57,140 bases of DNA from an archaeon (lineage in GTDB: Archaea; Asgardarchaeota; Thorarchaeia; Thorarchaeales; Thorarchaeaceae): positions 1-57,140 of the forward strand of contig JAJRZD010000032.1 in the NCBI GenBank assembly GCA_024275415.1, in the 5' to 3' direction. The notes beneath the pieces were generated by a model. The model was given only the letters and a program-made list of their open reading frames with translations. It did no database searches and was not told the origin of the DNA. Both the position numbers and the translations under genes were made by a program. Below, piece after piece: positions 42,994 to 57,140 of the stretch. Position 1 is the stretch's first letter, and the number at the start of each line of letters is the position of its first letter.

Positions 42994-44157
42994 CTAGAGC
43001 ATTTCTTTGTAGACTTCACGTTGGATAAGGAATCTGAGAATCTCCGCAGTTCCGCCTCCAATAGTCATTAGCCGTGCATCACGCAGAAATCGTTCCACAG
43101 GATAGTCAGTGGTGTAGCCCATACCACCAAGCACCTGTAAGGCATCATTAGTAATAGAGATTGCAGCTTCCGTAGCATACAACTTGGCGATGGATGCCTG
43201 CTTGGTTATCTTCATCCCCTTATCGTACATCCTTGCAGCAGTAAGGGTAAGTGCGCGGGCCGCTTCCAGTTTCATTGCCATGTCTGCAATCTTGAAACTC
43301 ACGCCTTCAAAAGCACGGATTGCCCTTCCAAACTGCTGTCGTTCATTGGAGTATTTCACAGCGACCTCATAGGGAGTACGTCCATACCCAATTGCCTCGG
43401 CAGCAATGGCTGTTCGTTCACTGTCCAGCTCGTCCATGAGGATGCGGAATCCCTGTACTTCTTCGCCGAGAAGCATCTCAGAACCTAGACGAACATCTTC
43501 GAGTTTAAGCCATGAAACTCTGGCAGACTTCATGCCTAGTAAGTCATGATCCTTCACGACACTAAACCCATCAGCATCAGTAGGAACGATGAATGCTGAC
43601 ATACCATCCTTCGATTTGACTGATGGGTCAGTGATAGCGAACGCGCACATATAGTCAGCCTGACTACCATTTGTGATGAACCGTTTCTCGCCATTAAGAA
43701 CCCACTCATCACCATCCTTCTCGGCCCTAGTCTTCATCCCTGCGGTGTCAGACCCGACCTCCGGCTCAGTGATGCCGATGCATCCTATCTTCTCACCCTT
43801 GACCACTGGAGCAAGGTACTTCTTCTTTTGCTCATCAGTGCCGAACACCTTCAAGGGCATTCCGAAAAGGGTAGTGGATGCCATCCGTGCCATGTCGAGT
43901 CCTCCGTTAGCAGCAGAGATCTCCTCAGCGACTATGATCTCGTAGGACAGCCCCTTTGCAGTACCTCCGTAGTCCTTGTCATGATGGACTCCCATGAACC
44001 CTGCCTGGCCAATCTTTCTCAGAAGATCACGCGGGTAAGAACCCTTGTCAATCTCATCTGCTATAGGGTAAATCTCCTTGTCACAAAACTCGCGAACTTG
44101 CTTTCTGAACTCAATCTCTTCCTCAGTCCATAGGACACTACTAAGATAGTCTGCCAT
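42994..44157 (-). CDS. Acyl-CoA dehydrogenase
   Basis: A 387-residue flavoprotein that oxidises acyl-CoA to 2-enoyl-CoA. FAD-binding and substrate segments: IGCIGITEPEVGSDTAGMKT, GEKRFITNGSQAD, and the C-terminal GGMGYTTDYPVERFLRDARL. The position of the catalytic Glu in medium-chain enzymes (EGT motif) is glycine here (IGGGTAEI); a glutamate occurs instead in MDELDSERTAIAAE, as in isovaleryl- and long-chain-type enzymes. Branched or long acyl-CoA is therefore plausible. ATG 44157 is chosen over TTG 44163. No electron-transfer flavoprotein gene is next to it. Confidence 0.9.
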   Translation of the reverse strand: MADYLSSVLWTEEEIEFRKQVREFCDKEIYPIADEIDKGSYPRDLLRKIGQAGFMGVHHDKDYGGTAKGLSYEIIVAEEISAANGGLDMARMASTTLFGMPLKVFGTDEQKKKYLAPVVKGEKIGCIGITEPEVGSDTAGMKTRAEKDGDEWVLNGEKRFITNGSQADYMCAFAITDPSVKSKDGMSAFIVPTDADGFSVVKDHDLLGMKSARVSWLKLEDVRLGSEMLLGEEVQGFRILMDELDSERTAIAAEAIGYGRTPYEVAVKYSNERQQFGRAIRAFEGVSFKIADMAMKLEAARALTLTAARMYDKGMKITKQASIAKLYATEAAISITNDALQVLGGMGYTTDYPVERFLRDARLMTIGGGTAEILRFLIQREVYKEML

Positions 44158-44213
44158 TGTCAAACACGGTCAAGGCACTGAGGTGCGGTACTTAAATTCC
44201 TAACGAATGTCGC

Positions 44214-44564
44214 TCACAGGTCATCATATGGCTCTTCACGCATGTTCTGGATAGTCTGAATCGCCAGCCTGCGTGCAGCATCTCGTTTCTTCTGGATGTC
44301 CAATGCTTGCGTGCGAATTTCCTGAAAGAGCCTCTTACGAGACTGGATGACTCGCTCAATCAGGGCTGCCACTGCCTCAGACCTGCTCTTGAAAATCTCA
44401 AGCTCGACAAGTGCGTCCAAGATGCCAACAATCTCAGAACTCATCCGGGTCATCACCGATATCTCACGTTTCTTCAGACCGAAGCGTTCCTCTGATGCCC
44501 TGCCAAGAAGCTCTTCTCGCAAGCTTGCCTGGAGTGCTGAAAAATCCCTGTTCTCTTCTGACAA
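44214..44564 (-). CDS. Small helical, ribbon-helix-helix-like protein
   Basis: A 116-residue protein from TTG 44564. The middle (about 35-75) reads ISVMTRMSSEIVGILDALVE then IFKSRSEAVAALIERVI, the strand-helix-turn-helix form of archaeal ribbon-helix-helix DNA-binding proteins. A long charged helix follows. No exact family is recognised. The same bases upstream contain the predicted non-coding RNA on the other strand, whose TATA element could also serve this gene in reverse. Confidence 0.55.
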   Translation of the reverse strand: MSEENRDFSALQASLREELLGRASEERFGLKKREISVMTRMSSEIVGILDALVELEIFKSRSEAVAALIERVIQSRKRLFQEIRTQALDIQKKRDAARRLAIQTIQNMREEPYDDL

Positions 44565-44621
44565 AGTTCAAGACCCCATAGACCAAGCGAAACTAATCAG
44601 GTCATATGATACAAAGAAGCA

Positions 44622-44629
44622 TTATATTA
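44622..44629 (+). promoter_or_regulatory. TATA box for the predicted RNA
   Basis: TTATATTA is centred 26 bases before 44651, the first base of the outer helix of the RNA fold. Between them lies a perfect palindrome, CGTAATA-C-TATTACG (44637-44651), which might bind a regulator. Confidence 0.45.
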
Positions 44630-44650
44630 CTTTTCACGTAATACTATTAC

Positions 44651-44744
44651 GCATCACGGATACGAGTAGGTAGCATTTTCGGTCCCTGAAACTCGTTACT
44701 AAGCGGGGCGCATATCGCAGCGGATGCGTTCCGGTCCGTGATGC
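44651..44744 (+). ncRNA. Predicted structured non-coding RNA, three-way junction
   Basis: This intergenic segment folds compactly. The outer helix is a perfect 10-bp pairing of GCATCACGGA (44651-44660) with TCCGTGATGC (44735-44744). Inside, ACGAGT (44662-44667) pairs with ACTCGT (44691-44696), extended by AGG/CCT across a bulge. The second hairpin pairs CGGGGCGCAT (44704-44713) with ATGCGTTCCG (44724-44733), with two G-U pairs and a 10-base loop. A TATA box sits 26 bases upstream on the plus strand. The layout recalls 5S rRNA (terminal helix plus two arms, and pieces such as CGGTCCC and TAAGC), but both arms are short and the conserved 5S loops are not in place. No tRNA or other RNA family fits. 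Confidence 0.45.
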
Positions 44745-44747
44745 ATC

Positions 44748-45071
44748 TTATTCCATTAACTTGTAGATGAAACGGTCTGACACATCACGGTCAATAGATA
44801 CAACCCGACCGATGTGTGTATCGTCAATCACATCTTTTGAGCCTAGACACAATACCATCGCTCCAGATCTCAATCGAACCAATGCCAAAACAACTGGGGG
44901 GTCAAACCCGTCCGGAGGACGCTGCAAGGAGGTGTAGCTAGCGATGACACCAGAGGGTTCTACAATGATTTGTTCAAGGTCGTGGAATTCAGGGCCGCAA
45001 TAAGGACATATTTCCCGTGGTGGGATGATGACAGCACTGCATCTCTGACATTTAGAAGCTTCAATCTCCAC
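44748..45071 (-). CDS. DUF35 zinc-ribbon/OB-fold protein
   Basis: A 107-residue DUF35 protein from GTG 45071. Four cysteines form the zinc ribbon (KCQRCSAVI and CPYCGPEF), followed by an OB-fold (SGVIASYTSLQRPP, PPVVLALVRLRSGAMVLC). DUF35 proteins partner thiolase-fold enzymes, but none is adjacent; the thiolase-like gene 33 kb away has its own DUF35 partner. It may serve a thiolase encoded elsewhere. Confidence 0.8.
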   Translation of the reverse strand: MEIEASKCQRCSAVIIPPREICPYCGPEFHDLEQIIVEPSGVIASYTSLQRPPDGFDPPVVLALVRLRSGAMVLCLGSKDVIDDTHIGRVVSIDRDVSDRFIYKLME

Positions 45072-45133: not shown

Positions 45134-45475
45134 CTATACCTTGTGTTTCTTCAGCGTATTGACTACGGACTTCAGATTCTTCTTGATGAATTTGCGGAAC
45201 TTGGGGTCATCAGAGAGGAACAACGTTGTCGAATCTTGAAGATTGCTGATGTCACCATCAATCTCTATTGCCTCTCCGAGTTCGATAATATCGTTCTTGA
45301 AGACTCCTTCGATTGCATGAGGAGAGAATCCCTCCTTTTTGTATACAGGGAAGATTTGCGCCTTTGTCGCAGCGCCACCTAGCTTGAGCAATGCAAGAAT
45401 CATAAGCCAATGATGCCAAGCCAAGGTGTAATTACTCAGGAATGCCATGACTTCTTCTAAGGGTCGTTGTGTCAA
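45134..45475 (-). CDS. Small winged-helix-like protein of unknown function
   Basis: A 113-residue protein from TTG 45475, which has GGAGG seven bases upstream (an ATG at 45448 lacks one). A hydrophobic-helical start (LAWHHWLMILALLKLGGAATKAQIF) is followed by helix and strand elements compatible with a winged helix, then a lysine-rich tail. No family recognised. It begins 26 bases after the stop of the coiled-coil/winged-helix gene and is probably the last member of that operon. Confidence 0.55.
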   Translation of the reverse strand: MTQRPLEEVMAFLSNYTLAWHHWLMILALLKLGGAATKAQIFPVYKKEGFSPHAIEGVFKNDIIELGEAIEIDGDISNLQDSTTLFLSDDPKFRKFIKKNLKSVVNTLKKHKV

Positions 45476-45501
45476 ACATGCGCCTCCAAGGTTTTCATTA
45501 T

Positions 45502-46821
45502 TCAGGTTTCGTCTTCACTTAATGTGTCTTTTGACTCTGCGCCTTCAGGCATAGATAACGACAACGGTCGAATCTTATCGTCCTCAATTTCCACGAGACC
45601 GGCATCAACGAACTTTTGCAGTTGACGCTTGAGCAGGATCGTAGGAATGCCAAGTGCCGAGGAGAGGTGTTGTAGCGGAAGCCAGTTTGTCTTTCCGGCG
45701 ATGATGAAATATGCTTTGAAAGCTGGTTCGTCCTCAGCAATCTGGTAGAGCGCATCCCATCGCGATTCCATCTCCTTCAACTGTGCTTTCAATGATTCAA
45801 TCTCTGCCTCTTGAGCATCCCTGATACCTTTCCACTCAGCCGATTCGTAATGAACCGATTCAATCTTCTTCTCGAACTCTTCCTTCTGAGCCTCTAGTTC
45901 CGCTATTTCCTTTTTCAGTATGTCAATCGCGGCATCCCTCTGCATGAGCTTGTCCTCATACACCATTATCTGCCCACGGATGCTTGCGAGTTCTTCGATA
46001 CGTGACTCGTACTCCTTTGCGATAGTTTCGGGAGTGCCAAGTTGAGCCAAGAGGTCTTTCTGCGAGCCTAACTGAACCTGCGATTTCTCAATTTGTCCCT
46101 TCATCTCAGCAATCTCAGCAGTCTTCTCTTCTAAAGCAGTTCGCAGTTCGGTAAGTGAAGTCCGGAGGTCCTCGATGTTCTTTTGACTCTGTTGAAGAGC
46201 TTCATCCTTCAACCTGATCAATTCTTCTTGTTCGGATGCTTTGCTTCTCCAGATACGAACCTCTGCTGCGGTACTCTCAAGTTGCTTATCAAGCTCGTTG
46301 AGTTTCGCGTAGAGTTGAACAAGCCTATTCTGGTGTTCTTCAGCGGTTTGAAATACCTGCAATGTTATCCCACTGCTGGTGGTAAGAACCATCGAGTCCA
46401 ATCGTGATTTTGCCTCTTTGATTGCGTTCAGAATGGACGACACCTGCTGTTTTGCGTTCAAGTTCTCTTTCAACCGATTCTTCACTACGGAAGCAGCTCT
46501 TGTCGCAAAAACACCAAGTCCAATCGTTTGAAGTTCTTTAGTGACGACAGAGATGACCTTCTCTAGCTCACCGTCAATCGCTGCCTCTGTAGACTCGACG
46601 TTTTCCTCGATGAACGAAAGTATCTCAGTGAATTGCTTGTGAACCTGTTGGAGCGTGTTGTCAGACTCTCCGGGTACGGTCTTGACAGATGTTTCCGAGC
46701 GAGCCTTGCTACCCGGATCCGAACCTAGCCCAGACTCTTCCATCACTGCTTCGATGAGCTCTTTGTCCTCATCAGTGAGCCCAACTCGTTTTTCAGGCTC
46801 GCGGTCTTCAGGATCGGACAA
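45502..46821 (-). CDS. Long coiled-coil protein with C-terminal winged helix
   Basis: A 439-residue protein from TTG 46821. Residues 1-55 are acidic and disordered-looking. About 60-340 form one long coiled coil of heptads (LQQVHKQFTEILSFIEENVE to EMESRWDALYQ), with Glu/Lys/Gln-rich registers. About 350-420 form a winged-helix domain (AGKTNWLPLQHLSSALGIPT, LLKRQLQKFVDAGLVEIEDD), and an acidic tail ends the protein. There is no ATPase motif, so it is not an SMC protein. It sits 12 bases downstream of another coiled-coil gene. A structural or scaffold role with the GTPase encoded upstream is inferred from the operon. Confidence 0.75.
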   Translation of the reverse strand: MSDPEDREPEKRVGLTDEDKELIEAVMEESGLGSDPGSKARSETSVKTVPGESDNTLQQVHKQFTEILSFIEENVESTEAAIDGELEKVISVVTKELQTIGLGVFATRAASVVKNRLKENLNAKQQVSSILNAIKEAKSRLDSMVLTTSSGITLQVFQTAEEHQNRLVQLYAKLNELDKQLESTAAEVRIWRSKASEQEELIRLKDEALQQSQKNIEDLRTSLTELRTALEEKTAEIAEMKGQIEKSQVQLGSQKDLLAQLGTPETIAKEYESRIEELASIRGQIMVYEDKLMQRDAAIDILKKEIAELEAQKEEFEKKIESVHYESAEWKGIRDAQEAEIESLKAQLKEMESRWDALYQIAEDEPAFKAYFIIAGKTNWLPLQHLSSALGIPTILLKRQLQKFVDAGLVEIEDDKIRPLSLSMPEGAESKDTLSEDET

Positions 46822-46833
46822 GTTGTCCCTACC

Positions 46834-47208
46834 TCAGTGTAGAACGCCTTTGTAGCCCATTGCCGTAAGTCTAGAAGCTGTTTCCTTTAGCTTTTCAGAA
46901 ACAATAGCTGCTTCTTGAATCCGGCTCATGAGTTCCTTCCTGAATTCGAGAGCGGTCAGTTCACCATTATCAAGTCGAGCAGTCAGGTCGCTTCGCTCCG
47001 CCTGAAGCTCTTCTCGTCGCTGGTACAATCGCTCATATTCCGCAACAAGATTGACGAGTTCTCCCTGCTGTTCCGGAGGCAAAGCCTCAACCGGAGGTGC
47101 CTTTTCAGGCTCCTTTACAGCCGGGCCTGTCGTCATGATTTCGCGTCCTCTTACTCTGGCTGGTTGCACATGTTTCTTCTTTCTTCGCCAACTATCAAAT
47201 AACCCCAT
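46834..47208 (-). CDS. Short coiled-coil protein
   Basis: A 124-residue protein from ATG 47208, with GGAGGT eight bases upstream. A basic, tryptophan-containing N-terminus (MGLFDSWRRKKKH) could bind membrane or nucleic acid. It is followed by a proline-rich linker and a coiled coil from about residue 50 (LVNLVAEYERLYQRREELQA). No family recognised. It is the second of three consecutive coiled-coil genes downstream of the GTPase. Confidence 0.65.
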   Translation of the reverse strand: MGLFDSWRRKKKHVQPARVRGREIMTTGPAVKEPEKAPPVEALPPEQQGELVNLVAEYERLYQRREELQAERSDLTARLDNGELTALEFRKELMSRIQEAAIVSEKLKETASRLTAMGYKGVLH

Positions 47209-47226
47209 TTTTTCTACCTCCAAACT

Positions 47227-47778
47227 CTATTTGCCCAGAATATCCTTTATCTCCTTCAATCGTTCCTCAAGTGACTGTCGCATGTTTTTTGCCACACTCG
47301 CTTTCTCGTCGTATTCCTCAGAACTGGCAGGGTCGTTCAGGGACATCTCGGCCAGTTCGTTCTCTTTCTCGAAAAGCCTTGCAATCTTAGCCTCAAGATC
47401 CTTCATCTCAGCTCGAAGATTCTCATGGGAGGCGTCCTCCTCTTCTGTGACCTCCTCCGGTTCAGGAGGCTGCTCGATGATGACCTCATCTTGGCCGTCA
47501 AGCTGCTCAGTCGAGAAACCTTTGACACGAACTTTGATGCCCTCGTCAAGTCGTACTTCTAGCTTTTCCATCCTTTCAAGGATCTGGGTCATCTGATCAC
47601 TCAAGTTCTTTATTGCAACAGTCTGTCTGTCAATGGTCTGGAAAAGGGCATCTGCGAACTCCTCGAAGTTCAAGCCGTATTTGTAGCTATCAAGGACATC
47701 CTTGATGTTTGCTATGTCCTGAATCAGCTTCCTGCGCTCATCAGGATCTATGATTTGGGATGAGTCTTTATCATTCAT
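47227..47778 (-). CDS. Coiled-coil protein downstream of the GTPase
   Basis: A 183-residue acidic protein from ATG 47778, two bases after the GTPase stop, with GAGGTG as ribosome binding site. Two helical parts (about 15-80, DERRKLIQDIANIKDVLDSY to MTQILERMEKLEVRLDEGI; and 115-183) are joined by an acidic, proline-rich linker. The strict coupling suggests it is made with the GTPase and may be its effector or scaffold. Confidence 0.7.
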   Translation of the reverse strand: MNDKDSSQIIDPDERRKLIQDIANIKDVLDSYKYGLNFEEFADALFQTIDRQTVAIKNLSDQMTQILERMEKLEVRLDEGIKVRVKGFSTEQLDGQDEVIIEQPPEPEEVTEEEDASHENLRAEMKDLEAKIARLFEKENELAEMSLNDPASSEEYDEKASVAKNMRQSLEERLKEIKDILGK

Positions 47779-47780
47779 GG

Positions 47781-48659
47781 TTACACCTCAATCTCACTTA
47801 TTATCTTGAAATCGACATTCTCGAAGACCACAGACTTCAGCAACTCGAGCCAGCGGTCACGAAAATCACGACGGTTTGCCTGCATACCATAAGCAGGAAC
47901 ATCCAAACGTCTTCCAACTTCCTTTGGAGACAATGCTCCAGGCAAATCCTGCTTGTTTGCTATAGCGACTGCTCGTGCATAAGGGAGCTCAGCCTTGAGA
48001 ACAGGATAGGCAACACGCTTTGTCCAATCAAGGTTCTCTTGCGTTGAATCTGTGACTATCACAACAACACTACCGGCACGTATGATTTTCCCCCATTCTT
48101 GGACAAAACGATCCTGTCCGCCCAGATCGAACATGCTGAAAACATATGGGTCGAAATCAGCTTTCAAGAATGCCTTATCCCCAAAGAACGTGGGCACATA
48201 TTCCTGAGGTGGTCCCTGTGACGGCAGTGTGGCCAGCTCAAGAAGTGTTGTCTTTCCGGTACCACCATGTCCAGCAAGGCAGACTTTCACAGGAATCTTG
48301 CTCACGATGCTTCGGAAACTGGGTTGGAACGGGCTGAAATCGGTGGATTTCCACTCATCGCTCTCCAGAATACCCTCATAGGCAGTCATGAATTTCGAAA
48401 CCAAGTTCATCATGGCTTCCTCTGCTTTCGAGAGAGATGATTGTCTATCCATTGTGATTATGAATTGAGTGTCATGGCTATTCATGTACACATACCTGAA
48501 GCGTTCGATTTCCATGCTGTCGATTTTCCATTCGTGTAGTTTTTTCGCTGAAGATGAAACCAGCATCATGACAGCATTTGAATCAAGATCGTTGTTTGGA
48601 ACAATAGTGTCTTGAAACAGTGGCTTGCCTTCTTTAAAGACATGAAGCTCGCGTATCAT
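47781..48659 (-). CDS. Arf-like small GTPase with N-terminal longin-like domain
   Basis: A 292-residue protein. Residues 1-100 are an alpha/beta region (IRELHVFKEGKPLFQDTIVP, FRYVYMNSHDTQFIITMDRQ, then a long helix) resembling longin/roadblock-type sensory domains. Residues 122-290 are a small GTPase of the Arf/SR-beta branch: P-loop GHGGTGKT (130-137), switch II DLGGQD (178-183) and NKQD (235-238). There is no C-terminal prenylation cysteine or N-terminal amphipathic Arf helix; the extra domain takes that place. In eukaryotes, longin domains and Arf-family GTPases meet at membranes. Expansion of small GTPases is a hallmark of Asgard archaea. It heads a run of four tightly packed genes with coiled-coil products. 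Confidence 0.85.
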   Translation of the reverse strand: MIRELHVFKEGKPLFQDTIVPNNDLDSNAVMMLVSSSAKKLHEWKIDSMEIERFRYVYMNSHDTQFIITMDRQSSLSKAEEAMMNLVSKFMTAYEGILESDEWKSTDFSPFQPSFRSIVSKIPVKVCLAGHGGTGKTTLLELATLPSQGPPQEYVPTFFGDKAFLKADFDPYVFSMFDLGGQDRFVQEWGKIIRAGSVVVIVTDSTQENLDWTKRVAYPVLKAELPYARAVAIANKQDLPGALSPKEVGRRLDVPAYGMQANRRDFRDRWLELLKSVVFENVDFKIISEIEV

Positions 48660-48830
48660 AGTTTCTTAGTCCTCCAGATTTATCATACAATATCTTCGAG
48701 TGTGATAATGAACATTGGGCAGATTCCCATATGAGCGTAATTCGTACCATTGCACTAGCGAAATATGTTTCACAATCTGCTCGTGGACATCATCCTTCAA
48801 GTTTCATCATCACTCCGTTTCTTGCAGGTT

Positions 48831-48850
48831 GAGGGGGACAATACCCCCTC
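48831..48850 (-). terminator. GC-rich hairpin after the surface-protein gene
   Basis: A perfect 7-bp stem (GAGGGGG/CCCCCTC) with a 6-base loop begins 10 bases after the stop of the giant surface-protein gene on the minus strand. No T run follows. It may end or attenuate that transcript before the GTPase gene, whose promoter would lie in 48660-48830; no clear TATA box was picked out there. Confidence 0.5.
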
Positions 48851-48860
48851 GGTTGCAATC

Positions 48861-51800
48861 CTATTCGTCTGCCAAATCATCCTCCTCTATGATGTCTTCA
48901 TCGTCAGCTGAAACGTCCGTTTCGTCTGATTCGGAGCGCGCTTCTGCGTCCTCTTCGACATCTAAATCCTCGGGTTCATCAGAGAGTGAGTCTTCGATTT
49001 CCTCTTCAAGTTCCTCACTATCCTCCGAGTCTTCTTCTAAAGACTCAGATTCAGCAGTGTCTTCTTGTTCTGCTATTTCATCATCCTCCTGAGGCTCCGC
49101 ATCATCGAGAACATCAGAGGCAGTTTCATCCTCAGAGGTGTCCAGAGTTGGTTCTTCGGGGATTACCTCTTCAGAGGTGTCCTCGGCAACTGTATCATCA
49201 GGTTCAGCCTCGTCCATCACTTCATCAACAGTAGGTTCTGCTGCAGGCTCCTCCGGTTCATCAGGGGATTCCTCGACCTTCTCAGTTTCGATTTTCTGCT
49301 CCCCAACATCTGCCTCTGATTCAACAGCCTCAGATACTTCCGCATCCTCCACTTCAGGAACCTCTGGCTCGGCTTCGATTATTGTGTCAAGCTCGGCCTC
49401 TAGCTCGGCCTCGAAGGATGAAACATCATCGGGGAGTGTTTCTTCGACACCCACATCCTCAAGCGCGTCCAGTTCATCAAGGAGACCTTCAGTGTCATCT
49501 AGTGACACATCATAATCCATCTCAGGACCTACTTCGATAACAGGAGCTGAAAGGTCGAGTTCTGCCAGTCCGGGTGCCAGAAGCTCTGAAACAATCGAAC
49601 CCATCGTCTTCACTTGATCAATCTTCGCCGTCTTGCCATCACCCATGGCCTTCAATGCCTTGTTGATCTGCTTGATGGCGAATGGAATCTTGTAACGTTT
49701 GATTCCAATGTAGGATCCACTTCCGATGGCGAAAAGTCCAATCATCAAGAGAATGGTCTGGAACATGGAGAGTGGGATTCTGAAGGAGCCGACGGATAGA
49801 CCGAACACGGATGTCAGCGCGTCTACAGGTCCAAGTATGTCTACTGTGGCCTCGGTGATGGTCACAGAGATTACCGTATTGCTGGCGCTGGTGATGTTCG
49901 TGTAGAGCGGCGCCTCAATCACTACCTGAATGCTGTAGGCTGTCGTACTTCGTTCGCCAACCTGCGCACTGACTACACTTGCATAGTATCGCTCGTTCTC
50001 CTCATCGTAGAAGAGACCGTCACCTAGACTGAAAGTCAGTTGTGAGTTCACAGTGAGTTCTGCACGTGTCACCATTGAAGGAGTGATAGACCTCTGTCGT
50101 CCACCGACTGTATCAATGAACTTGAACCAGATGATTCCAGTCTGCCCTTCCTCGATATAGAAGCCGCTCGTTTCAGTCACGAGCTGTGTCGTCCCTACAA
50201 GAACGAGTTTTGGCTGGATGGTGACGGTAGTGTAGTTCTGCAGTTCAGCCGTTATGTTCAGGGTGAATATCCCAGGCACACGGTCATCACCAATCTCTTG
50301 AGGATTGAATGTCAAACGGTATACTTGAGTGCCTGCCTGATAGCTGGCATAGAATATTTGGCCTCCGTACTCCATCGAGATGGTTGCTCCAGTCAAGACA
50401 CCTGTCAGCGAAACAGAATCATCATCGACACTGTATGTCAGGATGATTTCGCCTGTATCCTCGCCATAGACGAGGGTATAGGTTCCCTGATCGGACTCAA
50501 GAGCAACATCTACAGGATTGATGACCAAATCGAGCACTCCATTCGGAATGGTGAAGTTCTCGTTATCGACCACTATCAACAAGGTCCTGTCGCCAGCAGG
50601 AATCTCCATCGTGTCAACGGTCACATGATAGTCAACACTAGTATCCCGATAGGCAAGATAGCCAACGATGGATGTGCCCTGCCAGCTGTAGTACACCGTC
50701 GTATATTCAAGAGCCAGCAGCCCTCCACCGTGGGTATTGAATACCCTGACTTGCAATTCGAACTCCTGCGACCAAGTCCACTCTAAGGAGGTGGGAGCAT
50801 CAATGATTATCGTTCCCGAAATGGGCTCTATGACCACTGAAGTGGTGTTAGTGCTATCGACATAGTTTGGCAACTCGTAGGTGAAGGTCAAATCGTATGG
50901 ATCCGCAGAGGCGGGGAACCAGTTGTCCGAGTCAAAGCTGAGAGTGAAGGTTCCGTTGTTGTGATTGACCATCTGTAGCGAGTAGGCCCCATAACTTACT
51001 GTAATAGTCGCCCCTAACCAGATATATCCTCCATGAAGTGCGTCGTAGAGATGAGCCTTGATGGCAATGGGGTCACTCCAATTGACAGCCCCAATGGAGT
51101 CGATTACTAATGAGGCATCGGTTTCAAGAACCAGCATGATGACTGTGGTCAGGTCGTGCTCCTGATACCCATTCCTCATCAGCTCGATTGTGATTACATA
51201 AACTGAGCCTTGGACATTGGCATTCATCCCAAGGAGCTTGGTATCCACAGTGAGTGTGTACCAGCCTCCGCCTTCGTTGACGACATCAGTAATCGGAATG
51301 TCCAGTGGGATAAGAGTGTAGGTTTCTGATTCAGCATAGGTGATTGGCAAGTTATCAAGGGTGTTGTTCCAGTAAAACCGTACATCGAATACATCTGCGT
51401 AGAACACCTCGAAATACTGCTGTTCAAGTACGACCTCATTAGGCACTGCATCAATGCGCACGAAGAAGGTTATCTGGTCGGCAGTCCCTCCCGTAATCGT
51501 TGCAGTAACAACAATCTCGTAGAGCTGATCTTGCGGTACTGCATCGTAAGCGTTCAGGGTGACATTGTATATGCCGCCCGAGTAACCACTTAGAGTGCCA
51601 CTCTCATCCACGACCGACTCGACAAACCAGCTGTATGATACTGTCGCTCCTGTCACAGGAGTATTGATCCTAGACTGATCCCAGAGCGTCAGCTCGATAG
51701 TGAAATTACGAGTCCAATACACAATGAGCGGATTCTCAATAGAGCCGAATTCGCTCTGAATCAGGAGCGGGACATTCACTGTGATTGTCAGGTCGATTTC

Positions 51801-54800
51801 ACCATTCACATGATTGTCCTTGATAAGCTGGAGGCGTAAGACCCATGTCGATGCTTCCACTTCTGTGCTTACAGTGATTCGGTAGATGCCTCCGCCAAGC
51901 TCCAGAAGCGCTACACTATCAGTCCAATTGCTGGAGAAAGTCGCGCCAGTAAGCCCAACACTATCCGAAACCCGTGAGAAGTCCACATCAAAGACCGCGG
52001 GCGATAACCAATCAATCTGGACTGTATCTGAGGTGATAGCAGTGAGGGTGGTTGGAGCCGGAGAAACTGTGATGAAGCTCGCAGGGCTTGTTATGGTCGC
52101 TGTGGCAGACCCGTAGTTGGCCTTCGAACAAGTGACACTGATGTTCCATGAACCTACGGGAACAATATCCCTTGAGAATGTATAGGTCAGAACGCCACCA
52201 GAAACCGAAAGGGTCCTTGTGACATTGAGATACGACATTCCTGCATCCGTGTACCATCGGATAACGACTTGCACATTAGACAGTGTGGGTACGGTAGTGT
52301 TTCCTGCGAATCCGTATTCGAACTGGAAATCAGTGGTTGCCGGATCCCATGTATAATCATTGGTTGAAACTAGTGTCACCTGCATAGGAATCTCGATAAT
52401 CGTCACTCCGACAATGAATGTCTGGTTGATATAGTTCCTTTTCTGAAGAGTAAGTGTAATCGAGTACACGCCTGTGTCAAGTCCATTGAGGACAGAGGGG
52501 AGAATCTGGTACAGGTGTGCACTCACTCCCAGCGTCCCAGACCTGAGCTCGGTCGCACCAGACTTCACAGTATAGTTGAAGACATTCAGACCAGTCACAT
52601 TCACACCATTTGTGGAATCGTATAACCAATAGGAATGGGTGCTGTGGTTACCATATTGCTCAGTATAGGATGAATCGCTTATTCCCAGACTGGTTTCAGC
52701 GGGATTCACTGTCAAGTAGATGGTTATTGTATCAGGATCGTCATATCCGGTGGTATGAGCGTTGATTACAATCGTGTAAGGTGTTTCAGACACATTTAGT
52801 TTCCACAGATCGGTGTCAACAATGATTGTGTAGTTCACAGCTGTGTCTTGGACAACATAATACTCTGTCGCCTGAGACCAGTAACCCCAGCCAATAGGCG
52901 TCGAACCCATGTATATCGTGTAATTCACCCATGTCGTGCCATCAATATTTATGACTGATGTTGTGCTTGGACCGTCCCTATCATAATAGCCCACCACAAA
53001 AGATGCGTTTCTACCCCATTTTGCTGTCAAGTATGAAACAGTAGAGTTCAATTCGGTATAAAAGTCTGCATAGGCCGGTACATTAATTGTGATGTTATTG
53101 ACGAACCACCAGTCCTTATCGGCCTTCACAAGTATTTCCGTGAGAAAGCCATTACTGGCATCGCCAGCGATGACTGTAACGTTGTAGGACACCGAATAAG
53201 GTGATGACATGTTGGCATGAATGACAAAGAAGGTGATTTGTCCTGTACTGTTGGTGCTACCTGTGGCAACCAAATTGCCACCCTTTAGAGTGATATTCAC
53301 TTGAGCGCCTTGTACAAAGGTGCTAGGACCTGTCATTACACGGAAGTTCGCACGAGAAATAGGTAATTCGACCGTATAAGATGTTTCACCTTGCAAACTT
53401 GTCAGGAATTTCGTATTATTTCGGGCAATTGGTGTTTCAGAATAGCTGTCGTCCTTCCACACATCCAAGTTCCAAGTCCCATTTACGATGCGATAGAAGT
53501 TATAGACGCCATCTGCATCAGTCGTGCGTGTGAGTGTGTACACGTTCTCATTCTTGGTATTGTTAATCTTGACCGTTGCACCTTCGATGGGCTGGTCATC
53601 CCAGCTCATCACAGTGACACGAAGTGTGATCAATGGCACTTCGAATGTATACGAGTAGGGCCCTGTATCGAAGTCCGCTTCATTTCGTGACCAATTGCCA
53701 AATTGTAGCATTTGATCGTACTGATACGATGAAACGTTTCCATCATAACGAATGAAGAACGAGTATGCATCTTTAGGCAGCCGATAGAATGATGCCACAC
53801 CAGATGCGTCTGTTGTCTGCTGGTCTATGTAGGCACTCCCATCAGCGCTCGGTCCAGTCACATTGGAGGCCCGGATGCGTGTGGTTTCATCTGCGGTCTG
53901 TGCCATGGGATTGCCCATGAGATCCTGCAAGGTGATGTCAAAGGAGCCCATTGGGAGGATTACATCAATGGGTGTGACAGACCCTGTGATTGCGTGGTTC
54001 GAGGTGTTGCGAACCCAAATATGGGTATATGAGGTGTACAACCATGAGGCTGCATCTATGACTGCGCGTACCTCATAGGTGGCATTGCCTAGGCCTTCAA
54101 AAACAACAAGTCCATTCGAATCGGTTATGCCTGTGCGATTTCGCCCCTGCTCGTCCAGCCAGATAGTGGAAGTTGTTGCATTGTAGAGGGTCACCTGCAC
54201 ACCCTCAACTACTGTGCCATCAAGGTCTTTGACTGTGATATCGAATTCGAAAAGATGTCGTTCAGAGCCGTATGTAATACTAACTCCAGCCTGATCCTGG
54301 TCAGGAGAGTACGCAGGGACTGCCCAGCCATAACCTGTATCATAGATTGGGTCGTAGGGAGCAGTTGTCGAGAACCTACCCACATCGACTACTCCGATGC
54401 TAGCATTCGATGTTATGTGATAGAGTGTCATCCCAGAGGATACTGGTCTGAATGATGCCATTCCGCCAGCGGGGATTTGGAGTGTGCCACCATTGTATCC
54501 GCTTATTTTGACCTCGGCATTCTCAAGTGCGACAATCATGAACTTGTAACCATTGATGCCCCAAAGCTTGTAATTAGTGCCATAACGATGACCTGTGATA
54601 GTAGGAACCCAGTCACCAGCATCGGTCACAGCCGTAGGATTGTAGAGACCTTCAACCATGAGCATTGAACCAGTATCGCCCTTGATGTGAAGGACATCCT
54701 CGGGATCCGTATCGCTTGCGACACCTCGTGCAATAAGGTAAGAGCTATTTGCTGCAATGTTCTGAGTGCCTACATATGTCCAGGCGCCCCCGTTGGAACT

Positions 54801-56096
54801 TCGCCACCAGCTGATGTCAACGGCGGTACTACCTAGGTTCGTGACTCTGGTGTAGTCGCCGCTGTTACCCATATCAATAGTATAGAATTCCTCACCTGCA
54901 AGATTGCCATTCACATCGGGATAGAATGCCCAGATGTCACGGGAGTAGGCTGCGTCAACGTCCCCACATCTTCCAGTGATTGGCTTTGTGGCGTTTGCAA
55001 TCTTGATGTCGTTATATACGATGTCCCATTTGTAAATATACTCGCCTTCATCGAGGATGGCGGGCCATGTGTTCACCAGAGAGTAGTTGTTGAACCTCCA
55101 ATTGGTATCCGCAGACCCATCCGCATTGGTAATCCAGACCTGAGTGTCATTCTCTTGTGCTAGAACCCAGTACTTCCCTTCGTTTCGAGCGTCGAAACCC
55201 TCAACGCCACCAAGGATGATTTCCGTTCCAGAACCTGAGCCCAGTTGGTTTGTCACTGGGAACCAGTCGTTCATAGCCGCATTTGAGCCTTCGTCACCTT
55301 GACCCATGTGCACATACATTGGGTAGTTGGAGTAAACAGCATAATACCCGGTGAACAATGTGTAAGAGTATACATCGGGCTCGTAGCGTGCTGCTTGATA
55401 TTGAGCGAGTGTTCCAGAAGGAACATTTGATGGATAGACGCTTCCGCTAGTCCCATCCCATTTGCCATCCAGATTGCGGGGATCGTCCCAAGTCTGGGAA
55501 GCAGAATCGTACATCTCAATGAGGTAATTATTGTTATCGTAGAAAGAAACGAGGCTGATGAGAGAGAATGTATAGGATTTGTAGGTGAATGGATAGAAGT
55601 TTGGATAGCTTACTGTTCCAACAGGCTCCTTGGCATAGTAGATGTAATAGTTGGTCTCAGTCGAGCCCGAGGAAACATTCACCAAGAAGGATATCCGAGT
55701 CGAGAGGATGTAATTCCCAGTGGCATCATATGTTGTATTCCAGACTTGGAATGGTAAGAGTGTCCATCCGGGGTTGTCATAGTACGCGACACGTATTGAT
55801 CCCGCATAACAGTTGCCCTCTGTAAATGTGAGATACAGATGCACGGGCGAATTGGTCTTACTCGCTTCAGATGCGTCAAGAGTGAAATTGAAGTACCGCC
55901 GATAGATGAAGGTACTATTCCACCATGTCGCTTCGTCTTGGAACCCGGCCAACTCGACCCCACTGTTCTTGACCTGAAGGGGGGTGGCGTCAGTAGGCTC
56001 CGGTGCTGGTTTGTTCATGGTGGATGTGTTTGTCATTGGCAATAGCAGGAACGTGACAAACGCCGCAAACAGGATAAACATGATTCGACGATTCAT
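48861..56096 (-). CDS. Giant type I surface protein with Ig-like repeats and acidic cytoplasmic tail
   Basis: A 2,411-residue protein from ATG 56096 (MNRRIMFILF); GGAGGT lies eight bases upstream within the end of the preceding gene. A signal peptide (1-25) precedes a DUF2341-like segment (about 50-160, WWNSTFIYRRYFNF). About 160-600 is an unassigned beta-rich region. About 610-1000 carries four carboxypeptidase-regulatory/prealbumin-like units (TVKDLDGTVVEGVQVTLYNA; VMSWDDQPIEGATVKINNT). About 1000-2070 holds some ten Ig-like units of about 105 residues with many NXS/T sequons. One membrane helix at about 2107-2130 (FQTILLMIGLFAIGSGSYIG) is followed by about 280 cytoplasmic residues, very rich in Asp and Glu. 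It looks like an adhesin or receptor built to contact proteins inside the cell. Confidence 0.85.
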   Translation of the reverse strand: MNRRIMFILFAAFVTFLLLPMTNTSTMNKPAPEPTDATPLQVKNSGVELAGFQDEATWWNSTFIYRRYFNFTLDASEASKTNSPVHLYLTFTEGNCYAGSIRVAYYDNPGWTLLPFQVWNTTYDATGNYILSTRISFLVNVSSGSTETNYYIYYAKEPVGTVSYPNFYPFTYKSYTFSLISLVSFYDNNNYLIEMYDSASQTWDDPRNLDGKWDGTSGSVYPSNVPSGTLAQYQAARYEPDVYSYTLFTGYYAVYSNYPMYVHMGQGDEGSNAAMNDWFPVTNQLGSGSGTEIILGGVEGFDARNEGKYWVLAQENDTQVWITNADGSADTNWRFNNYSLVNTWPAILDEGEYIYKWDIVYNDIKIANATKPITGRCGDVDAAYSRDIWAFYPDVNGNLAGEEFYTIDMGNSGDYTRVTNLGSTAVDISWWRSSNGGAWTYVGTQNIAANSSYLIARGVASDTDPEDVLHIKGDTGSMLMVEGLYNPTAVTDAGDWVPTITGHRYGTNYKLWGINGYKFMIVALENAEVKISGYNGGTLQIPAGGMASFRPVSSGMTLYHITSNASIGVVDVGRFSTTAPYDPIYDTGYGWAVPAYSPDQDQAGVSITYGSERHLFEFDITVKDLDGTVVEGVQVTLYNATTSTIWLDEQGRNRTGITDSNGLVVFEGLGNATYEVRAVIDAASWLYTSYTHIWVRNTSNHAITGSVTPIDVILPMGSFDITLQDLMGNPMAQTADETTRIRASNVTGPSADGSAYIDQQTTDASGVASFYRLPKDAYSFFIRYDGNVSSYQYDQMLQFGNWSRNEADFDTGPYSYTFEVPLITLRVTVMSWDDQPIEGATVKINNTKNENVYTLTRTTDADGVYNFYRIVNGTWNLDVWKDDSYSETPIARNNTKFLTSLQGETSYTVELPISRANFRVMTGPSTFVQGAQVNITLKGGNLVATGSTNSTGQITFFVIHANMSSPYSVSYNVTVIAGDASNGFLTEILVKADKDWWFVNNITINVPAYADFYTELNSTVSYLTAKWGRNASFVVGYYDRDGPSTTSVINIDGTTWVNYTIYMGSTPIGWGYWSQATEYYVVQDTAVNYTIIVDTDLWKLNVSETPYTIVINAHTTGYDDPDTITIYLTVNPAETSLGISDSSYTEQYGNHSTHSYWLYDSTNGVNVTGLNVFNYTVKSGATELRSGTLGVSAHLYQILPSVLNGLDTGVYSITLTLQKRNYINQTFIVGVTIIEIPMQVTLVSTNDYTWDPATTDFQFEYGFAGNTTVPTLSNVQVVIRWYTDAGMSYLNVTRTLSVSGGVLTYTFSRDIVPVGSWNISVTCSKANYGSATATITSPASFITVSPAPTTLTAITSDTVQIDWLSPAVFDVDFSRVSDSVGLTGATFSSNWTDSVALLELGGGIYRITVSTEVEASTWVLRLQLIKDNHVNGEIDLTITVNVPLLIQSEFGSIENPLIVYWTRNFTIELTLWDQSRINTPVTGATVSYSWFVESVVDESGTLSGYSGGIYNVTLNAYDAVPQDQLYEIVVTATITGGTADQITFFVRIDAVPNEVVLEQQYFEVFYADVFDVRFYWNNTLDNLPITYAESETYTLIPLDIPITDVVNEGGGWYTLTVDTKLLGMNANVQGSVYVITIELMRNGYQEHDLTTVIMLVLETDASLVIDSIGAVNWSDPIAIKAHLYDALHGGYIWLGATITVSYGAYSLQMVNHNNGTFTLSFDSDNWFPASADPYDLTFTYELPNYVDSTNTTSVVIEPISGTIIIDAPTSLEWTWSQEFELQVRVFNTHGGGLLALEYTTVYYSWQGTSIVGYLAYRDTSVDYHVTVDTMEIPAGDRTLLIVVDNENFTIPNGVLDLVINPVDVALESDQGTYTLVYGEDTGEIILTYSVDDDSVSLTGVLTGATISMEYGGQIFYASYQAGTQVYRLTFNPQEIGDDRVPGIFTLNITAELQNYTTVTIQPKLVLVGTTQLVTETSGFYIEEGQTGIIWFKFIDTVGGRQRSITPSMVTRAELTVNSQLTFSLGDGLFYDEENERYYASVVSAQVGERSTTAYSIQVVIEAPLYTNITSASNTVISVTITEATVDILGPVDALTSVFGLSVGSFRIPLSMFQTILLMIGLFAIGSGSYIGIKRYKIPFAIKQINKALKAMGDGKTAKIDQVKTMGSIVSELLAPGLAELDLSAPVIEVGPEMDYDVSLDDTEGLLDELDALEDVGVEETLPDDVSSFEAELEAELDTIIEAEPEVPEVEDAEVSEAVESEADVGEQKIETEKVEESPDEPEEPAAEPTVDEVMDEAEPDDTVAEDTSEEVIPEEPTLDTSEDETASDVLDDAEPQEDDEIAEQEDTAESESLEEDSEDSEELEEEIEDSLSDEPEDLDVEEDAEARSESDETDVSADDEDIIEEDDLADE

Positions 56097-56100
56097 TCTA

Positions 56101-57140
56101 CTAGACCTCCATGATGACATCCTTGTTGCTCGGGTGGAAATTCCTCAGAGTTTCAAGATAGTGAATGGCCTGACGAGCGGGAATATCTCCGTCATTGTAA
56201 AGGTCAACAGTGCGAGAGATCAACCATTCGGGATAGACCGTGACGACCTCAGGATCGCATTTCAAAAGGACATGCTCATTCCCGCCTTCATCCTTGTATT
56301 TGGAGATGATGTTGGCTTTCTCAAGTTTCCGGAGTTGCTTTTTGATCTGACTTTTCGAGATGTCAAGCTTTGCTTCAAGAGTGGCGGTCAGCGTGGGGCC
56401 TCTCCTGAGCTCGCTTATGATATCGTGTGCATCGAAATCAAGAATGAACTGAGATAGCTCCTGAGCCTCGAACCAAAGGGTTTCAGACAGGTCTCTACGG
56501 AGGCGTGCCACATACTCGCGGTGGTATTTCCTTGCTGTGCGGAGATACTCATCGGCAATCTCCTTTGAAACCTTTCCTGTACGAACCGCCCTCGCTGTTT
56601 CTCGGGATATGCCTCGCAGGATGAAGATAGCTCGGGTCAGATAGATGACCTCTGACGAAAGGCCCTCAACCCATCCAGTGGCGACAATGCCCATCTTCAC
56701 GAGAGGTCTCAGAATCATGTCAACGTCAATCTTCTTGCCAACCTCCTCGAAGATGAGTTGTTCTAAGTTGGTTGATTGTACCGTACCATCCTTCATAAGT
56801 GTCTGAAGAATCGCACGACGCACTGGGTCGTTGACGACAGACGCCTGACGCTGTTCGGGTGTCATGTGAGTGTACCGGGATATCTGTTTGTACAACTTGG
56901 GCACGAGCGAGGTATATGCATCACCTTCGGCATTCAAGAAAATCTGAGTGGCAATCTCAGGCAATGCATCCTTGTAAGCGTCAGGATCCTCGTCAGTCCC
57001 CAGCACGAGGAACACCATGGAAGGCAGCCCCTTCAGGTGCATGTTCAAACCACCATAATACACAGCCAGCTTGAAGTCGGGAAATGGTAGAGAGGAAAAT
57101 CCGGGTCTTTGTGCCTCTTCTGTTTCGCCCAGCGTTGCAA
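56101..57140 (-). CDS. Winged-helix protein with longin-like N-terminal region, 5' end outside the window
   Basis: The frame is open to the right edge (346 visible residues), so the N-terminus is missing; GTG 57061-57063 is not the true start since sequence before it (FSSLPFPDFKLA) is protein-like. The first visible 75 residues (LAVYYGGLNMHLKGLPSMVF) resemble the second half of a longin/roadblock-type domain. Residues from about 95 contain helical winged-helix pieces (NDPVRRAILQTLMKDGTVQS; IVATGWVEGLSSEVIYL), and a clear HTH lies near 255-300 (ATLEAKLDISKSQIKKQLRK). Its stop is four bases before the start of the giant surface-protein gene, whose ribosome binding site lies inside it, so translation is coupled. 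It may regulate or assist that protein. Confidence 0.75.
   Translation of the reverse strand, partial: ATLGETEEAQRPGFSSLPFPDFKLAVYYGGLNMHLKGLPSMVFLVLGTDEDPDAYKDALPEIATQIFLNAEGDAYTSLVPKLYKQISRYTHMTPEQRQASVVNDPVRRAILQTLMKDGTVQSTNLEQLIFEEVGKKIDVDMILRPLVKMGIVATGWVEGLSSEVIYLTRAIFILRGISRETARAVRTGKVSKEIADEYLRTARKYHREYVARLRRDLSETLWFEAQELSQFILDFDAHDIISELRRGPTLTATLEAKLDISKSQIKKQLRKLEKANIISKYKDEGGNEHVLLKCDPEVVTVYPEWLISRTVDLYNDGDIPARQAIHYLETLRNFHPSNKDVIMEV

Follow-up and report, generated by a model that had tools for sequence, protein, structure and literature searches.

A giant surface protein coupled or fused to a longin–winged-helix protein in Asgard archaea: a candidate outside-in GTPase switch

Asgard archaea are kin to the cells from which eukaryotes arose. 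In the thorarchaeal contig JAJRZD010000032.1, which in its entire length of 57,140 bases constitutes the window analysed here, we find a cluster of seven minus-strand genes, named HTH, SURF, GTP, K183, M129, C439 and W113. We interpret this cluster as an outside-in GTPase switch consisting of a receptor, the longin platform HTH, a longin–Arf-like GTPase and coiled-coil effectors, a reading to which we assign a probability of about 0.55. The link between the surface protein and HTH is established both genetically and covalently in the predicted genes, and we infer that this pair controls the GTPase. The unit of surface gene and HTH is not only thorarchaeal and recurs in other Asgard families. 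Giant Asgard surface proteins are thus likely to act as receptors that would switch an intracellular GTPase.

Results

Coupling and fusion of the surface protein to HTH

SURF (48861..56120, minus strand) encodes a giant type I surface protein of 2,419 or 2,411 residues, the longer option starting 20 bases inside the HTH gene and the shorter one at Met9, 4 bases past it. HTH itself (56101..57138, minus strand) is truncated at its 5' end by the end of the contig; because most orthologues have about 388 residues, some 43 N-terminal residues are missing from it. The open reading frame (ORF), domain matches and hydropathy predict for SURF a signal segment, carboxypeptidase-regulatory/Ig-like repeats, one C-terminal transmembrane helix (TM; residues 2115-2133, 49722..49778) and a cytoplasmic tail. 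A signal segment, a large ectodomain, a single C-terminal TM and a cytoplasmic tail, all judged by hydropathy only, are the layout of a type I receptor.

Fusions of the two are found in another Asgard family, f2. One of its genomes, G168, assembled in one contig, contains a 2,087-residue frame in which a signal segment and an ectodomain are followed by a TM (residues 1611-1629), a juxtamembrane segment (1642-1702) and HTH (1725-2081). A search of 65 f2 genomes with the surface-HTH junction as query returned 18 stop-free frames through TM, segment and HTH in eight of them (G120, G134, G168, G170, G172, G199, G200 and G204), and at other f2 junctions a single stop separates two in-frame genes. 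All three parts could be placed in one frame for 13 of the 18 fusions, and the segment ends about 20 residues before HTH in every one of these; an N-terminal signal segment is present in seven, several of the others being truncated where the contig or the stretch read ends. Since the fusions place HTH beside the juxtamembrane segment, the predicted topology puts HTH on the cytoplasmic side. Six of the nine fused loci retrieved (L214, L220, L245, L246, L247 and L249) carry a GTPase matching the GTP profile no more than about 0.6 kb away; none was found beside the fusions in the G120 array or in L248 and L250, both of them short contigs. In the G120 array (G120:C9:438700-465114), four frames follow one another in tandem, each about 2,650-2,680 residues long and each a surface-longin-winged-helix fusion.

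Distribution across Asgard archaea

A 15-row HTH profile, applied with E values up to 0.001, finds matches in 174 of 195 Asgard genomes, several families matching weakly. Universal presence of HTH in Asgard archaea could not be upheld: for f13, f15, f17, f21, f22 and f23 the best listed matches stand at about 1e-3 to 1e-6 or there are none, and canonical HTH is probably missing from these families. Gene neighbourhoods were tallied for two overlapping sets of 59 and 68 instances, which are the top-listed matches outside the thorarchaeal family f1 and hence not a random sample, many coming from related genomes; surface genes were called heuristically, as genes of at least 500 residues with few hydrophobic segments.

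Within 50 bp of the 59 instances there is a giant surface gene in 26 cases, a GTPase of the GTP profile in 11, both in one and neither in 13, the remaining eight lying at contig ends. The spacing between HTH and the surface gene is mostly -1 to 3 bp. With the contig-edge instances set aside, 27 of 51 are coupled to a surface gene, compared with none of 220 control genes (at least 250 residues, same loci; Fisher 1.9e-23); six of these 220 touch a GTPase. The 68-instance set, which adds genomes in few contigs and accepts a GTPase on either strand at distances of up to 1.5 kb, has 32 strong instances beside a giant surface gene, two fused to one, 20 with a GTPase only and 14 with neither. A GTPase is found near 10 of the 34 surface-linked units, from seven genomes, with a binomial chance that rises from 3e-7 to 8e-5 as the assumed span is widened, the Arf density being taken from one genome. 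Where a GTPase is near, the profile match spans the longin part in 26 of 30 instances.

Four genomes that are 81-100% complete in 1 to 10 contigs (G104, G122, G168 and G170) allow a closer view. Nine of their 29 HTH members exceed 200 bits; the partner to which HTH is coupled or fused is a surface ORF in eight of them (in one case of just 509 residues) and a short ORF holding the juxtamembrane segment only in the ninth. Inspection by eye of the other 20 revealed a surface gene directly adjoining on the same strand in none, and a few adjoin GTPases. Homologues of an f2 HTH are annotated only as 'hypothetical protein' in 18 named records, 11 from Promethearchaeota, one from Lokiarchaeota and six from other Asgard groups. 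In G040, of family f5, HTH and a 1,238-residue surface gene share 4 bases, and GTP, M129-like and C439-like genes follow, which makes f5 a second family with the module of the window.

The juxtamembrane segment of SURF

Directly past the TM of SURF lies a segment of 57 residues, RYKIPFAIKQINKALKAM...ELLAPGLAELDL (residues 2142-2198, 49527..49697), which alignment, pairwise identity and genome search mark as a candidate docking site. Among 13 surface proteins of more than 2,150 residues it is the best-conserved block, with a mean pairwise identity of 64%; the ectodomain reaches 35-48%, the proximal tail 47%, the TM 33% and the signal segment 24%. Pro2146, Lys2150 and Gln2151 are its best-conserved residues. 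The segment is also present in surface proteins of f1 and in G040, and those of f2 carry a counterpart similar to the thorarchaeal version in a 55-column alignment (hhalign probability 83.8, E 7.9e-6).

The initial annotation had singled out the acidic tail of SURF (48864..49526), and the composition bears it out, with 105 Asp or Glu against three Lys or Arg among 219 residues, 44 of which form the proximal part. Its further suggestion that this tail is the contact for cytoplasmic partners fares worse, because the distal tail shows 30% identity as against the 64% of the juxtamembrane segment. Conservation indicates that the cytoplasmic contact is likely the juxtamembrane segment rather than the acidic tail. 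The key partner is likely HTH, which the fusions place on the predicted cytoplasmic side.

Three open frames of about 3,400-5,060 residues with a weak match to the segment (G009:C1:40137, G019:C37:164960 and G013:C6:107565) are possibly further giant surface proteins. At locus L042 of genome G017, two surface genes have differing TMs and near-identical juxtamembrane parts and following tails in the stretch compared, which suggests gene conversion.

The predicted fold of HTH

The AlphaFold2 model of the HTH orthologue P0121 (pLDDT 77.5), together with longin and winged-helix matches, predicts a longin domain followed by two winged helices, in agreement with the initial description of a winged-helix protein with a longin-like part. 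NPRL2/NPRL3 have this order of domains as well, a possible likeness at the level of predicted fold, the structural matches being tied. Pfam NPR2/NPR3 is absent among the 13 families with E values up to 1 for P0121, nor is it among the 25 commonest of 65 families for all 51 HTH members, and no GATOR1 chain appears in the 27 matches of one search or in the best 60 of 84 of another. The loop residue is Lys77 in 47 of the 51 members and Arg in four; Arg is also found in some other HTH subfamilies.

The genome of the window (G000) carries a second HTH-surface unit at G000:C109 (L107:138-7883), with a complete HTH of 388 residues and a surface protein of 2,192; its HTH DNA is 86% identical to that of the window over 523 bp, and the unit may be a tandem copy or come from a second strain. 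Two further paralogues in this genome have no directly adjoining surface gene: the one at G000:C28 (L064, L195) has a longin-GTPase 2 bp away and that at G000:C127 (L066) a GTPase at a few hundred bases. Stand-alone longins of 125-129 residues that resemble the N-terminus of HTH adjoin GTPases (L148:1245-1625 and L149:1730-2119) or ORFs to which the coiled coil of C439 gives a match (L208:13525-13902, L223 and L228).

The GTPase and its conserved neighbourhood

Pfam, alignment and prediction identify GTP (47781..48659, minus strand) as a predicted longin (residues 2-98) joined to an Arf-like GTPase. It passes the Pfam Arf cut-off of 22.3 with 45.8 bits, and its nucleotide-binding motifs GHGGTGKTT (P-loop), DLGGQ and NKQD are invariant across 51 homologues. 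This composition, a longin fused to an Arf/Rag-like domain, is that of the longin-GTPase fusion class of Tran et al. 2024. The ArfR GTPases of Asgard archaea share the Arf-like core and are described as carrying an N-terminal amphipathic helix (PMC12554972); GTP has no helix of this type, the predicted longin taking its place.

Close orthologues of GTP were found in 20 of 59 genomes searched, its own included, all of them in f1, ten further f1 genomes lying outside the search; loci found through M129 add four, giving 24. Named records containing the orthologues number 20, with 17 labelled Thorarchaeota, two Lokiarchaeota and one 'archaeon'. Comparison over up to 20 kb around GTP places a surface gene directly upstream in 17 of the 24 loci and none in six (G007, G015, G023, G062, G067 and G068), one locus (G025) being cut by a contig end; the surface gene is doubled in tandem in G011 and G016 and shortened in G002. 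The initial annotation had proposed a synteny search that would count against it if the GTPase genes lay apart from the surface gene as often as next to it. They adjoin it in 17 of the 23 visible loci. The seven-gene cluster is real, and its clustering goes beyond chance because gene order is kept across genomes.

K183 is present in 18 of the 24 loci and missing in exactly the six without a surface gene, with no match anywhere in those six genomes; C439 is missing in five of the six, and M129 and W113 occur in every one of the 23 visible loci. The tree of GTP implies no fewer than three changes in the combined presence or absence of SURF and K183 along supported branches, and four on the best tree. 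K183 tracks SURF in three of three independent pairs, too few for significance in a sign test, and the neighbouring gene R116 does not track this state. Another surface protein with the juxtamembrane segment lies on the same contig in G015, past HTH and one 392-residue gene, and elsewhere in the genome in G007 and G023.

Discussion

What could such a set of proteins do? In the proposed outside-in switch, the surface protein would sense a ligand or a contact outside the cell, and its juxtamembrane segment is predicted to hold HTH. The longin of HTH would meet the longin or the G domain of the GTPase, placing it on the receptor, where HTH might serve as a GTPase-activating protein (GAP), a guanine nucleotide exchange factor (GEF) or a holder. 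Outside contact would then alter the nucleotide state of the GTPase, which in its GTP-bound form may gather K183 and C439, along with M129, near the membrane as effectors or scaffold, the basic MGLF start of M129 presumably touching the membrane. A link from the surface protein to GTPase-controlled scaffolds had been part of the initial annotation. It gains from synteny, from SURF and K183 being missing together (with C439 in five of six loci) and from the surface-longin fusions, and it needs amending in that the contact is probably not the acidic tail, the key partner is likely HTH and the unit extends beyond Thorarchaeota.

Several observations weigh against this interpretation. No such GTPase lies near 24 of the 34 surface-linked HTH units, and the structural matches for HTH are tied. 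It could also be that surface and GTPase genes are mere co-inherited neighbours without joint function. We regard this as very improbable for the cluster as a whole, since SURF and K183 are missing together from six of six loci, 18 frames are fused and none of the 220 controls is coupled to a surface gene; mere neighbourhood is hard to maintain in view of the fusions, and for the GTPase half it could apply.

The main rival to the GTPase switch is a membrane-tethered one-component regulator in which the surface protein would sense and HTH, as the DNA-binding output, would act on genes through its winged helices, with the longin and the GTPase as accessories, a possibility we consider unlikely. 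The corresponding plan, in which one protein combines a winged helix with a TM and an extracytoplasmic domain, is found only in the fused forms elsewhere, the genes being separate in the window. These fused forms are alike ToxR/CadC-type regulators in having an extracytoplasmic part, one TM and a cytoplasmic winged helix, but the Asgard system has in addition a longin domain, the juxtamembrane segment and neighbouring GTPases. Within HTH, the longin is the conserved part: mean pairwise identity is 86% in the longin, 56% in the second winged helix and 49% in its recognition helix. The second winged-helix domain is net acidic (charge -3.8), the recognition helix having +3.2, and longin-GTPase partners recur. 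Winged helices also make protein contacts, and the top three Foldseek matches of HTH are ESCRT-II chains. The pattern of conservation and charge leans towards protein contacts rather than DNA.

Longin and Arf-like parts act in eukaryotic membrane traffic. The GTPase, HTH and the coiled-coil proteins might accordingly deliver or anchor the surface protein, through export, patching or placement on protrusions, and receive no signal. The basic MGLF start of M129 would be in keeping with such a role, as would the cells of Lokiarchaeum ossiferum, whose surface is described as bearing numerous complex proteins without a highly ordered S-layer (PMC9834061). However, no coat, tether or fusion protein was recognised in the loci examined, and in the fused forms HTH and the receptor make up a single polypeptide, which would be odd for a transient carrier. 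We hold delivery to be slightly less likely than the tethered regulator, and return to the outside-in switch in comparing the cluster with known systems.

Asgard longin-GTPase fusions and NPRL2-like longins are already in print. The MglA/MglB polarity switch of Myxococcus likewise employs a prokaryotic small GTPase, there with a roadblock-type regulator, but the GTPase and regulator families differ, and we know of no receptor link for MglA/MglB. NPRL2/NPRL3 of GATOR1/SEAC, which operate with Rag GTPases, may resemble HTH in having a longin and then winged helices (predicted fold) and a small GTPase partner; HTH is set apart by the missing Pfam NPR2/NPR3 match of P0121, by mostly Lys instead of Arg in the loop and by the link to a surface protein. 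A mechanistic model is offered by the longin-DENN GAPs C9orf72:SMCR8 and FLCN:FNIP2, in which a longin pair sits on an ARF or Rag GTPase, that of C9orf72:SMCR8 cupping ARF1; as described in PMC8213707, they contain DENN domains where HTH has winged helices, and a GAP role could be ascribed to HTH only by analogy. The Asgard fusions of the Rag/Arf-like class share with GTP the longin fused to an Arf/Rag-like GTPase, and relative to their description in the accessible text of Tran et al. 2024 (PMC10933270) the longin-GTPase of the window stands out by its grouping with surface-protein and coiled-coil genes. Our literature search, which did not extend to most subscription papers or to any supplements, found no description of a receptor at the cell surface that is linked or fused to a longin-winged-helix protein and clusters with longin-GTPases.

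We tentatively extend the proposal, at somewhat less than even odds, to a general Asgard receptor class whose longin-winged-helix output, fused or co-encoded, sets the state of a longin-Arf/Rag-like GTPase. If true, outside-in small-GTPase signalling existed before eukaryotes, with parts akin to GATOR1-Rag and C9orf72-ARF control, and relatives of the eukaryote ancestor had by then connected small GTPases to cell contact or to signals from outside. Both gene order and fused proteins record the pairing, leaving a named regulator, receptor segment and GTPase open to purification and testing.

Remaining genes of the cluster

All seven frames proposed in the initial annotation are open, and its spacings of 2, 18 (or less), 12, 26 and 4 bases agree with the coordinates. 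GTP is followed after 2 bases by K183 (47227..47778), a partly coiled-coil protein. Then, after 3 bases, or 18 if it begins at the internal ATG of MGLF, comes M129 (46834..47223), with a helical-hairpin-like body and a basic MGL(F/I/V) start that is conserved across families; in some further Asgard families, too, M129 is a neighbour of the GTPase. C439 (45502..46821), a long coiled coil whose C-terminal part has matches in G040 and G041, lies 12 bases further, and after another 26 bases the minus-strand series ends with W113 (45134..45475). This small conserved protein had been labelled winged-helix-like, which its best PDB sequence match (E 0.61) does not confirm.

SURF and GTP are separated by 201 bases, in which the G/C hairpin noted previously is indeed present (GAGGGGG-TATTGT-CCCCCTC, 48831..48850, minus strand); it has no T-run behind it, and a terminator scan lists no terminator in this gap. 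Genes for an acyl-CoA dehydrogenase and a zinc-ribbon/OB protein (42994-45071 in the window) adjoin the module in relatives, even where the module is reduced, and are probably metabolic neighbours.
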